Origin: Geobacter sp. DSM 9736
GTDB lineage: Bacteria; Desulfobacterota; Desulfuromonadia; Geobacterales; Geobacteraceae
NCBI RefSeq assembly: GCF_900187405.1
Contig: NZ_LT896716.1
Coordinates: 868,001-932,000, forward strand
DNA: 64,000 nucleotides
Direction of reading: 5' to 3'
Part shown: one piece after another, positions 35,934-39,910 of the stretch
How positions within the stretch are numbered: the stretch's first letter is position 1
Layout: every line of letters begins with the position of its first letter
Position numbers and translations under genes: made by a program
The notes under the pieces: generated by a model
The model's input: the letters and a program-made list of their open reading frames with translations, nothing else
Database searches by the model: none
What the model was told of the DNA's origin: nothing

Positions 35934-36212
35934 TTACTTTCCATTGACGCGGGATCTCAATATCGTGCTCGGCTTGAAGGTCAACACACTCCGCGATGAG
36001 ATGGTAATAGCTTCTCCGGTCTGAGGGTTCCTTCCGGTCCGATCCGCCTTCTTCCGAACCACAAAGTTCCCAAAGCCGCTGATCTTCACATGCCCTTCCT
36101 TGACTATCGCCTCTTTGAGCGCTTCCAAGGCAAGTTCCACTAGTTCAATTGAATCGTTCTTCGTGCATGACAGCCTTTCTTGAATTCTTTCCGCTATATC
36201 AGCTTTCGTCAT
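35934..36212 (-). CDS. IHF-alpha/HU-type DNA-bending protein
   Basis: 92 residues from ATG 36212 (AGAGGTCC upstream; the frame is longer but lacks an earlier ribosome site). Full HU/IHF fold: MTKADIAERIQERL, KISGFGNFVVRKKADRTGRNPQTGE and AITISSRSVLTFKPS. The beta-arm RNPQTGE contacts the minor groove. It could support site-specific recombination or transfer of this element, in addition to chromosomal IHF. Confidence 0.9.
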   Translation of the reverse strand: MTKADIAERIQERLSCTKNDSIELVELALEALKEAIVKEGHVKISGFGNFVVRKKADRTGRNPQTGEAITISSRSVLTFKPSTILRSRVNGK

Positions 36213-36340
36213 CCCAGGACCTCTTCGTTTAATATGAGTGCTGTAAATATCACAAATGATTAATAACATCCATCAGATTTGAAGAGACCGGAACACATTG
36301 GGGAGTGCAGGCGGTAATCCCGTACATCCTGGCAAGAGAT

Positions 36341-36602
36341 TCAAGTTTTCAAGGTCAGTAAGTGCTGCGACACCAGAAGTTCCTTGTCTGCCCGATTCAT
36401 GGCCTTGATCTGTGATTCCCTTTTGGCTGCAGAAGAGCGGTTGTGGGCATTTTCGGAATACACAACCTGTAATGGATGTCGTCCCCGGAAATATTTGGCG
36501 CCACTTCCATTTGCGTGCTGCCGGAGGCGCCTATCAATATCCGTGATCATCCCAGTATAGAGTTGTCGGAATAGAGAATTATGTAGACGAGCCAGTTTAT
36601 TG
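36341..36602 (-). pseudogene. Decayed GIY-YIG endonuclease-like gene
   Basis: A GIY-YIG domain in two frames. The upstream frame reads NWLVYIILYSDNS, then the second frame reads LYTGMITDIDRRLRQH and on to the stop. The junction AACTCTATACTGG looks like loss of one CTCT unit, a 4-base deletion. The expected start before NWLVYI is ATA rather than ATG. Intact relatives (YhbQ/UvrC-like) are about 90 residues. The remaining downstream frame could still be read from an internal ATG but lacks the GIY half. Confidence 0.7.
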
Positions 36603-36603
36603 C

Positions 36604-38130
36604 CTAAACCTTCATCGATCTGGCGACGAATTCCGCAAAAGGCTTTATTTCTCCCCGCGAACTCGCCGATTCAAGGCATGCCATATAATCAGATCGTTGT
36701 TCAATCCGGATTACCGTCCACGGGTAACCGCCGGACGCCAGCATGGCATTCATCAGGAACCGGCCCAATCTGCCATTGCCATCAAAATACGGATGGATGT
36801 ACACAAACAGAAAATGTCCCAGAACAGCGCGAACGGCTGCGCTCTGTTCAGCCTCCAACAGGTCGCACAGTTCCGGCATCATGTCACGGACTGCATCCTG
36901 AGAAGGGGGAACGTGCGTTGCACCCCTGATAAAAACCTTGTCAGTCCGGTATCCGGCCAGGTCCGCCGGCTTGAGGAAACCGGCATCGACATTTGGTGAG
37001 AAAAGGTTGCGATACCATGAAGCGTGGTCATGGCGGAAAGCGGCGCCGGGATTTGCTCCGGTCAGAATGCTTCTGATCGTGGTCTTGACCTCGTTATGAG
37101 CGAGCCAGTAACCGTGTGCCGCCATGGCATTTTTCATTTCCGCGTCAGAGCCATTACTTTCCGGATTCCAGTCCCCGGTGGCGACCTTTTGAATAAGATC
37201 CGGAGTGACACGATACCCTTCAATGGAGAGGGAATGATAGGCATCGGTTTTATAGTTTTCTTCAACTGCATCCATGAACTTCTCTATGTCGCACGGGATG
37301 CCTGGTTCAGCGGGGAAAGAGCTCAAGACGATCTCTCGCATGGTTTGCCACATGAGACGCATTCGCAGGACATAGGGCGATTGCGCTCTGGTGAATGCCA
37401 GGGCCGGCGGTGCGATGCTGAAAGGATTCGACTCGTTGACCACAAATCCAGCTGCTCTCATGGTCGCCAATACATCAGCCGCCAATTCTTCTCGCCCCGA
37501 TGCCCGTAGCGCGCCGGCGAGACGCCCGGCTACACTGCTATGGCCCCCTTCCAGGAGTTCCCGGTTGAGATCCGACGCATCCCGCAACTGATGAAGAGCG
37601 ATATGGGCATCCTGGACATAGGTAGTGAAAAATGCCTCCGGCACCCGGATGAGTGCCACCGGCAGTGTTAGAACGCGGATTCGTTCCACCACCTGGATTT
37701 TCCCGGCAGGAATAAAATCCTTTACCTTGTAGTCCAGGATCGAGCAATTGTCAGGCAGCTTCAGCAGACCGTTCTGGCCAAGCGGCGAATGGATCACAAC
37801 CTGCTGCGGTGTAATAGTCTTTCCCGTATGCAGAAACAATGAGTATTCTGCTGATACGTGCCATTGATCACCAAACCGCTCGGTGCAATAGCCTTGGATG
37901 AAGTCACGCATCGCCGCATACCAGGGCGTGCTGTCGCCGGTCTCTTCGCCCGGCCGGCAGGGCATATACCACCCCTTGACAATAGGTCGCAGGAAGCCGT
38001 TCTTAACAAGACTCTCCCGCTGCATTCGAGTCAGGTCACCCGACTTTATGGCGGTTTTACCGTCATCCTGCAATATCTTCAGGGCACTTAGAGCATCGGC
38101 AAGCCTGCGTTGTACCGGAGTTGTTGCCAT
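36604..38130 (-). CDS. Fic protein with N-terminal AbiEi-like winged-helix domain
   Basis: 508 residues. The C-terminal half is a Fic AMP-transferase with IHPYFDGNGRLGRF (about 443-456); the inhibitory helix motif SLSIEG (about residues 299-304, S-x3-E-G) comes before the core, which makes it a class II, self-inhibited Fic. The N-terminal 190 residues resemble AbiEi-type antitoxin wHTH plus domain (VKNGFLRPIVKGWYMP, then a middle beta domain). Such a fusion would let the Fic enzyme bind its own promoter; four regularly spaced repeats stand just upstream (38152-38237). The stop lies next to a GIY-YIG remnant. Confidence 0.87.
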   Translation of the reverse strand: MATTPVQRRLADALSALKILQDDGKTAIKSGDLTRMQRESLVKNGFLRPIVKGWYMPCRPGEETGDSTPWYAAMRDFIQGYCTERFGDQWHVSAEYSLFLHTGKTITPQQVVIHSPLGQNGLLKLPDNCSILDYKVKDFIPAGKIQVVERIRVLTLPVALIRVPEAFFTTYVQDAHIALHQLRDASDLNRELLEGGHSSVAGRLAGALRASGREELAADVLATMRAAGFVVNESNPFSIAPPALAFTRAQSPYVLRMRLMWQTMREIVLSSFPAEPGIPCDIEKFMDAVEENYKTDAYHSLSIEGYRVTPDLIQKVATGDWNPESNGSDAEMKNAMAAHGYWLAHNEVKTTIRSILTGANPGAAFRHDHASWYRNLFSPNVDAGFLKPADLAGYRTDKVFIRGATHVPPSQDAVRDMMPELCDLLEAEQSAAVRAVLGHFLFVYIHPYFDGNGRLGRFLMNAMLASGGYPWTVIRIEQRSDYMACLESASSRGEIKPFAEFVARSMKV

Positions 38131-38151
38131 TGCAATCCCTTTCCCACTTCT

Positions 38152-38237
38152 AGACTATTGTGCATTACAATAACTAGTTTATTCTGTATTGTCAACGCTA
38201 GATTATTGTGCATGGCGGTAGCAAGATTATTCTGTCG
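38152..38237. repeat. Four direct repeats at exact 24-base spacing upstream of fic
   Basis: Units of about 14 bases begin at 38152, 38176, 38200 and 38224: AGACTATTGTGCAT, AGTTTATTCTGTAT, AGATTATTGTGCAT, AGATTATTCTGTCG. Units 1 and 3 share TATTGTGCAT, units 2 and 4 TTATTCTGT. The spacing is constant, about 2.3 helical turns, so bound proteins would lie on nearly one face. It lies 21-107 bases before the fic start and ends about 190 bases before hipB, so it is probably the operator of fic. Confidence 0.75.
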
Positions 38238-38429
38238 AAGCGCCTGCCGGTTTGAAGGTTGGAGCAACCTTCGCTCATCTAGTATCCTCCGTTAATTATC
38301 TAGAATCGGCTATATTCATTCTTTCATGGCGTTGTGGTGAATAACATCAATGATCATGTATATAATGGTGGCCTTGTGGCATTAATGCTGATATATATAC
38401 GAGCGTATATGTGGGGTCATGGAGGTAAC

Positions 38430-38666
38430 ATGAAGATTGCCAGTGCGGAAGACATCGGGCGCATCATCAAACAGAAGCGGAAAAACGATCGCCTCACGTT
38501 GGAAGAGGCTGCTGCTGTTTGCGGAGTGAGCTATGCCTTTATGTCTGCCCTGGAGAACGGCAAGGAAACGGTTCGACTGAACAAGGTGCTCCAGGTAATC
38601 AAGTGCCTGGGTATCGAGTTGGAAGCGAAACCACGGACGTGGGCGACTCCGGGGGCCGAATCATGA
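38430..38666 (+). CDS. hipB: HipB-like antitoxin
   Basis: 78 residues from ATG 38430 with GGAGGTAAC immediately before. A single Xre-type helix-turn-helix: DRLTLEEAAAVCGVSYAFMSALENGK (given in part: LEEAAAVCGVS and MSALENGKETVRL). It overlaps hipA by four bases (ATGA), the standard order. It should bind the hip promoter and hold HipA inactive. Confidence 0.87.
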   Translation: MKIASAEDIGRIIKQKRKNDRLTLEEAAAVCGVSYAFMSALENGKETVRLNKVLQVIKCLGIELEAKPRTWATPGAES

Positions 38667-39910
38667 CTGCAGCTCTCTCGGTGAGAATTGATGATGCAGT
38701 AGTCGGGCGGCTCTGGTTGGACGAGAAGAAGCGGTTCTGCTTCCAGTACGACCAGGACTGGCTGGAGCGTTCGAAAATCCCCCTGTCGCTCTCGCTGCCG
38801 CTCAGGACCGACCCCTATCTTGACGACGAGTCGCATCCCTTCTTCGCGAACCTCCTTCCTGAAGACAAAATCAGGGCAGTGATCGTCCGCAATCTCGGAA
38901 TCTCGCTGAATAATGATTTCGGCCTGCTGGAGCGGATCGGTGGCGACTGCGCCGGTGCTGTTTCTTTTTATCCCGAGACCGGAGAACTGAAACACGAACC
39001 TGGTCGATATCGCCAGCTCTCGGCGGATGAGCTCGCCGCCATCATCAGAGAACTGCCGCGTCGACCGCTTCTTGCCGGCGAGAAGGGGGTACGGCTCTGC
39101 CTTGCCGGCGCGCAGAAGAAGCTGCCCGTCTTCTACGATGACGACCACTTCCATCTCGGATATGGCGCATTCACTTCCAACTACATTATCAAACCGGCAA
39201 TCGAGGACCTTGACGGCTCGGTAGAGAACGAAGCATTCTGCATGGCGCTAGCGGGCGAGATCGGCCTGGATGTGCCGCGCTCGTTCATCCATCAGCATGA
39301 GGATACAAGGGTCTTTGTCGTCAAACGGTATGATCGCATTACAACCGTGGATGGCACAAAGAGGCTGCACCAGGAGGATTTCTGCCAGGCGCTCGGGGTT
39401 CCACCAGAGTTCAAATACGAATCCGAAGGGGGCCCATCACTGGCGGCATGCTTCGATCTGGTACGGAAGACAAGCGTCAGATCGGGAAAGGATGTGCTGT
39501 CACTGCTGAACTGGGTAATCTTCAACTACCTGATCGGCAACTCCGACGCCCACGGTAAGAACATTTCCCTGCTATTACTGCCTGAAGGGCCAATGCTGGC
39601 CCCTTTCTACGATCTCCTTTCCACCCGGATCTACGCCCAGTATGGCCTGGCAGAAGGGCTGGCCATGAAGATCGGCGGAGAGAACGATCCTGGCGACATC
39701 CAGAAGAAGCATTGGGAGCTGTTTGCCGAGGAGGTCGGCATCAAGCCGCGGCTGGTGCTGACCCGTGTCGCCGATCTCGCGCAGAAGATCGAGGTTGCCC
39801 GTCTGCAGCTCTTCAAGGGCGCCTTCGCACCCTACAAGTGTGATGCCCTCTACCGCTTGATGGATTTCATGGGGGAGCAGGCAGAGAAAACCATGCATAA
39901 GCTTGCATAG
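38663..39910 (+). CDS. hipA: HipA-type serine/threonine kinase toxin
   Basis: 415 residues from ATG 38663. Split HipA_N/HipA_C: N-terminal HPFFANLLPED and DFGLLERIGGDCAGAV, then CLAGAQKKLPV (P-loop region, about 146-156), catalytic NYLIGNSDAHGKN (about 295-307) and FYDLLST (DFD-like metal site). HipA kinases phosphorylate a translation factor, GltX in E. coli, and cause dormancy. Full length for the family. Confidence 0.92.
   Translation: MTAALSVRIDDAVVGRLWLDEKKRFCFQYDQDWLERSKIPLSLSLPLRTDPYLDDESHPFFANLLPEDKIRAVIVRNLGISLNNDFGLLERIGGDCAGAVSFYPETGELKHEPGRYRQLSADELAAIIRELPRRPLLAGEKGVRLCLAGAQKKLPVFYDDDHFHLGYGAFTSNYIIKPAIEDLDGSVENEAFCMALAGEIGLDVPRSFIHQHEDTRVFVVKRYDRITTVDGTKRLHQEDFCQALGVPPEFKYESEGGPSLAACFDLVRKTSVRSGKDVLSLLNWVIFNYLIGNSDAHGKNISLLLLPEGPMLAPFYDLLSTRIYAQYGLAEGLAMKIGGENDPGDIQKKHWELFAEEVGIKPRLVLTRVADLAQKIEVARLQLFKGAFAPYKCDALYRLMDFMGEQAEKTMHKLA

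Follow-up and report, generated by a model that had tools for sequence, protein, structure and literature searches.

What reads the four repeats that stand in front of a Fic gene in Geobacter sp. DSM 9736, and what do they do there? In the window (the whole stretch of 64,000 nucleotides that was analysed), four 14-base units recur at exact 24-bp steps from 38235 to 38150 on the − strand, which also encodes the Fic protein. They precede the Fic start codon at 38130 in the arrangement ACAGAATAATCTTG-N10-GCACAATAATCTAG-N10-ACAGAATAAACTAG-N10-GCACAATAGTCTAG. Stacked in four rows with a step of 24, the units gave 59 of 72 pairwise matches, compared to 39 in the best of 3000 dinucleotide shuffles, and the score of the array was equalled by 0 of 300 shuffles at any step from 14 to 40. 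These values confirm the original prediction of four related 14-base units at 24-base steps; the coordinates given with it (38152-38237) identified the right array, but were displaced by 2 bp. A second pair of units (≤3 mismatches) was not found elsewhere in the whole 3.96-Mb genome.

The units straddle the sole sigma-70 promoter-like site before the Fic gene, TTGACA-17-TATTGT, as follows.

38222 to 38235, − strand: candidate operator unit 1 (distal), ACAGAATAATCTTG; aligned with unit 1 of orthologues
38198 to 38211, − strand: candidate operator unit 2, GCACAATAATCTAG; sequence stack, orthologue alignment and genome-wide motif search
38190 to 38195, − strand: putative −35 hexamer TTGACA, in the gap between units 2 and 3
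38174 to 38187, − strand: candidate operator unit 3, ACAGAATAAACTAG, between −35 and −10; sequence stack, orthologue alignment and genome-wide motif search
38167 to 38172, − strand: putative −10 hexamer TATTGT, in the gap between units 3 and 4
38150 to 38163, − strand: candidate operator unit 4 (proximal), GCACAATAGTCTAG; sequence stack, orthologue alignment and genome-wide motif search
38137 to 38145, − strand: probable ribosome binding site, GGGAAAGGG; read from the sequence

Promoter-like sites were present in 58 arrays. Both hexamers fell inside the array span in 49 of these, and in 25 the start of the −35 occupied a common position in the 24-bp register.

The gene downstream encodes a fusion of two parts, with the following features.

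36604 to 38130, − strand: AbiEi-Fic fusion gene, 508 aa; model pLDDT 93.4
37426 to 38130, − strand: AbiEi-type module, codons 1-235; model pLDDT 95.8, folded alone
37768 to 37776, − strand: candidate specificity residues, codons 119-121 (Q-N-G); matched to base 10 of the unit
37216 to 37233, − strand: class II Fic inhibitory motif SLSIEG, codons 300-305; 75 homologues
36760 to 36795, − strand: Fic catalytic motif HPYFDGNGRLGR, codons 446-457; motif read and homologues

A fold search with the full-length protein was swamped by Fic structures, and the N-terminal part was therefore folded alone. The model of residues 1-235 matched 1zel (Rv2827c; Z 10.4, 214 aligned residues, rmsd 4.4) and 6y8q (AbiEi; Z 8.9), the latter being the best Foldseek match (E 3.3e-5, prob 1.00), and nucleotidyltransferases ranked after both. 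As modelled, residues 1-235 fold as a complete AbiEi antitoxin, with a winged helix (residues 1-57) followed by a nucleotidyltransferase (NTase)-like domain from residue 68. An AbiEi-like winged helix-turn-helix had been foreseen at the N-terminus; the likeness to AbiEi stands, but takes in the whole AbiEi fold rather than a winged helix alone. By sequence, the fusion is too distant from AbiEi for Pfam AbiEi_4 (PF13338), which matched 0 of 75 members at E ≤ 1, and a profile comparison with AbiEi was weak (E 0.0012, residues 27-58). A PDB sequence search with the N-terminal 100 residues returned no match, and Pfam, NCBIfam and PADLOC recognised the Fic part alone.

Judged by its motifs, the Fic half is an autoinhibited class II Fic AMP-transferase. 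Pfam Fic matched residues 393-464 (E 9.7e-13) and was matched by all 75 members; HPYFDGNGRLGR fits HxFx(D/E)GNGRxxR with Y replacing F. A class II inhibitory helix, (S/T)xxxE(G/N), lies N-terminal to the catalytic motif in the same chain, with S300-E304 invariant and G305 nearly so among the 75 homologues. The closest solved relative of this half is the animal Fic protein FICD/HYPE (model residues 269-508, Z about 24; hmmsearch E 5e-27), which differs from the fusion in being without a DNA-reading module.

The array is shared by orthologues. Related genomes, together with a bacteria-wide set with a single genome for each species, supplied 109 distinct upstream regions. In a motif-free test, at least 11 of 13 bases matched at lag 24 in 92 of 108 orthologue upstream regions; 13 of 4320 shuffles reached this level, as did 1 of 491 segments taken from farther upstream. 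An iterated motif then placed a 24-bp direct-repeat array, with consensus RCAYAATAANCTAR, in 104 of the 109, mostly with 3-5 units and usually with four copies. The rows bearing an array come from Desulfuromonadia, several proteobacterial classes, Acidobacteria, Bacteroidota, Gemmatimonadetes, Verrucomicrobia-type bacteria and Vampirovibrio; the occurrence of similar repeats before orthologous genes, which had been proposed as a check, thus holds across many phyla. Four of the remaining five (L008, L044, L068 and L070) have 24-bp arrays with another spelling or farther upstream. No recognisable array was found at the loci L065, L206, L203 and L220. The array of L008 and L044 is TCATATG-based and lies ~270 bp upstream of the presumed start, and therefore a leader or another start may exist there.

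Two variants had been described as alternating along the array. They do so in the Geobacter copy (ACAG and GCAC heads), but the family as a whole does not share this: across 78 arrays of four units, mean identity did not rise from lag 24 (0.775) to lag 48 (0.760), and alternation as a family rule was rejected. So was the idea that 24-bp direct repeats are a habit of AbiEi genes generally. They were absent before 20 ordinary AbiEi_4 genes of the same class, and this layout is therefore particular to the fusion.

Gene by gene, we set the bases of the units against every protein column, and the Fic half served as the baseline that accounts for shared ancestry. Of the core bases, base 10 varied most, and it covaried with residues 119 and 121 far above other columns, with z of 6.8 and 5.8 in the first set (baseline residues 71-508) and 11.9 and 11.1 in 149 arrays. 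The pairing can be written as a rule: R119 goes with G, K121 with C, N121 (without R119) with A, and G121 with T. R119-G and N121-A are classical residue-base pairings. Other strong links join base 5 to residue 52 (in the wing), base 7 to 121, base 12 to 85 and 86, base 14 to 134, base 15 to 136 and base 23 to 232. Because of these positions, protein and unit appear to run roughly parallel, with the winged helix at the 5′ part and the NTase-like domain at the 3′ part. We had expected covariation to be confined to the winged helix; this was not borne out, as the strongest signal lay in the loop of residues 116-122.

The rule was frozen and then applied to unseen loci of three other classes and of plasmids, with base 10 hidden from the array finder. 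All 28 calls were correct, as were 101 of 103 units; as two of the 28 loci are one gene, these amount to 27 independent held-out arrays. For another 13 held-out arrays, the rule did not cover the residues present. In the full set of 149 arrays, it made 134 calls, of which 127 agreed, so that ~5% of called arrays disagree, and the rule gives no call where residue 121 is S, Y, M, H and, in some cases, Q.

Could this code arise from shared ancestry alone? Relatedness among the sequences speaks for this, as does the presence in some clades of a single base with a single loop. However, columns of the Fic half, equal in ancestry, show almost no links: the AbiEi part had 15 above z 5 against 1 for the Fic part, and 9 against 0 above z 6. 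Base 10 has also changed at least 35 times on a quick tree built from the Fic half. Among independent pairs, opposite changes were absent for G with R119 (6:0) and almost absent for A with N121 (about 5:0); strict tests on such pairs were significant for G with R119 alone, and were weak for C with K121 and T with G121. Together with the held-out success and the classical nature of two of the pairings, this makes ancestry alone a very improbable source of the code. The same covariation bears on whether some other DNA-binding protein reads the repeats, for example HipB, which is encoded 300 bp away on the opposite strand, in a hipBA pair oriented divergently from the array in the Geobacter window. 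Base identity follows residues of the Fic protein. While the array is nearly universal, HipA-like genes accompany no more than a handful among the 158 loci surveyed and, outside the Geobacter window, are ~25-35% identical. With hipBA not conserved, we rejected HipB as the reader, to which we give an even smaller chance than to ancestry. Smallest of all is the chance that the units are replication or partition iterons of an integrated plasmid. Homologues of the fusion are indeed frequent on plasmids (79 plasmid records), but the units covary with its residues and their placement over the Fic promoter is fixed. No conserved neighbour gene was found in the 158 loci, where the commonest neighbour family occurred in 10; this survey and the held-out base-10 rule led us to reject plasmid iterons. 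As neither a neighbour nor hipBA is conserved, the array tracks the Fic gene.

Self-regulation by the fusion, which the original prediction had put forward as a hypothesis, is strongly supported by these data: across phyla the repeats accompany the Fic gene regardless of its neighbours, their bases covary with the protein's own AbiEi part, and the rule held on unseen data. The four units are very probably the operator of an autoregulated AbiEi-Fic fusion, which would bind them head to tail and repress itself. Within this reading, binding of the fusion protein to its own array is strongly supported by the comparative sequence evidence. Repression of its own gene is what we infer from the overlap with the promoter and from analogy; covariation speaks for recognition and says nothing on the sign of regulation. 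The original prediction also spoke of a toxin-antitoxin fusion; an antitoxin role of the AbiEi part towards Fic is putative, and the Fic half has an inhibitory helix of its own.

How might such an operator work? We propose that every copy of the protein takes one 24-bp unit and reads it with its N-terminal AbiEi-type module. The 5′ part would be occupied by the winged helix, with the recognition helix (~residues 35-43) near RCAY and wing residue 52 at base 5. The 3′ part would be read by the NTase-like domain: its loop (residues 119-121) would face bases 7 and 10, while residues 85-86 and 134-136 would face base 12 and bases 14-15, respectively. A head-to-tail row of as many as four copies would cover the −35, the −10 and the start region and exclude RNA polymerase. 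This would keep the level of an AMP-transferring enzyme low that could be harmful to the cell, and its own inhibitory helix would additionally restrain its predicted Fic activity. One feature counts against this arrangement. A spacing of 24 bp does not correspond to an integral number of helical turns; adjacent copies would be ~100 degrees apart, and a flexible or wrapping arrangement would therefore be needed.

A different use of the same binding is that the DNA mainly controls the enzyme: bound copies would be inactive or deAMPylating and release would lead to AMPylation (or the reverse), with control of transcription secondary. The activity of CbFic2 from Coxiella burnetii depends on DNA and changes on DNA binding, and the same was suggested for CccR by the authors of that study (PMC10628234). 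The invariant inhibitory helix of the fusion likewise implies that its activity is switchable. Against this, a single four-site operator per genome could hold few molecules, and the promoter position suits plain repression. We regard control of the enzyme as the main role as unlikely, and retain an autorepressing operator as the preferred reading.

This operator resembles, and departs from, those of known systems. AbiEi (Streptococcus agalactiae) and Rv2827c (Mycobacterium tuberculosis) are antitoxins of type IV toxin-antitoxin systems with the same two-domain fold, and are autoregulators with several roughly 24-bp sites over their own promoter, much like the array of the fusion. Autorepression has been demonstrated experimentally for both, and in AbiEi it requires the full-length protein; residues needed for DNA binding lie in both domains of AbiEi (PMC7319586). 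In contrast, AbiEi operators are 23-bp inverted repeats (PMC7319586) and the NTase toxin of these systems is a separate gene, while the fusion has 24-bp direct repeats and a fused Fic domain. Neither a 23-bp inverted-repeat operator of the AbiEi type nor a cognate AbiEii nucleotidyltransferase gene next door was found, with no neighbour family in more than 10 of the 158 loci.

CccR (Yersinia pseudotuberculosis) shares with the fusion a Fic enzyme, a DNA-binding domain and a class II inhibitory motif, and represses its own promoter near −35 and −10 (PMC9755527). However, it is a dimer with a C-terminal HTH and binds two 10-bp inverted repeats 26 bp apart (PMC9755527), while the fusion has an N-terminal AbiEi module and 3-5 direct repeats. 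The CccR-type layout, with an HTH after Fic and an inverted-repeat operator, was not found in the fusion, the chain of which ends with the Fic domain. CbFic2 and SoFic (Shewanella) also combine a Fic enzyme with a winged helix, but there it is C-terminal, with no operator known, while that of the fusion is N-terminal. The PADLOC SoFic model matches the Fic part alone of the fusion.

Autoregulated AbiEi-type and Fic proteins are therefore already known, and what appears to be new is the unusual operator geometry together with a decodable recognition rule. A search of the open-access literature, with subscription papers and preprints outside its scope, did not find a description of the operator of the fusion. 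The array provides a testable candidate operator for a widespread Fic family annotated merely as 'Fic family protein'. It would also place base reading in the NTase-like domain of an AbiEi-type protein, previously known just to be needed for DNA binding, and offers a natural recognition code open to a simple residue/base swap. We see an even chance that these proteins form a class of single-gene toxin-regulator fusions, in which an AbiEi-type head-to-tail filament assembles on 24-bp direct repeats, the base is set by a residue code in the NTase-like domain (R119 G, K121 C, N121 A, G121 T), and operator and reader have been re-tuned together dozens of times. On the same reading, this joint re-tuning would insulate plasmid and chromosomal copies from each other.

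Relatives of the fusion are numerous, with 541 candidate stretches in a scan of genome contigs; none were found in viral contigs or phage records. Some genomes have two copies: L046 in G188, L047 and L033 in G075, and L021 and L002 in G019. One copy of a pair is ~62% and the other ~82-91% like the Geobacter sp. DSM 9736 protein, and in G188 two copies of 61-63% lie side by side. The 62% kind has just two units, within ~50 bp of the start codon. At L023/L057, where a 92%-identical fusion lies near a contig end, the array is lost, leaving remnants such as CTAGCGATGAACGAGG.

In the window, the hipB-hipA pair divergent to the Fic gene (38430-38666 and 38663-39910, both +) is not conserved beside orthologues. 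It is preceded by two imperfect 20-bp repeats (38345-38364 and 38380-38399), which may be hipB's own operator. Downstream of the Fic gene lie a short GIY-YIG ORF (36344-36550, −) and a gene for an IHF-alpha-like protein (35937-36269, −). At a few loci, L049 and L051, a look-alike AbiEi and AbiEii pair, so named from sequence alone, adjoins the fusion, perhaps as a toxin-antitoxin island. About ten close orthologues (L002, L024, L026, L028 and others) have upstream genes in common, including one for a protein starting MKLNLFGEPVPP, and these genes look as if they were carried on one mobile element.
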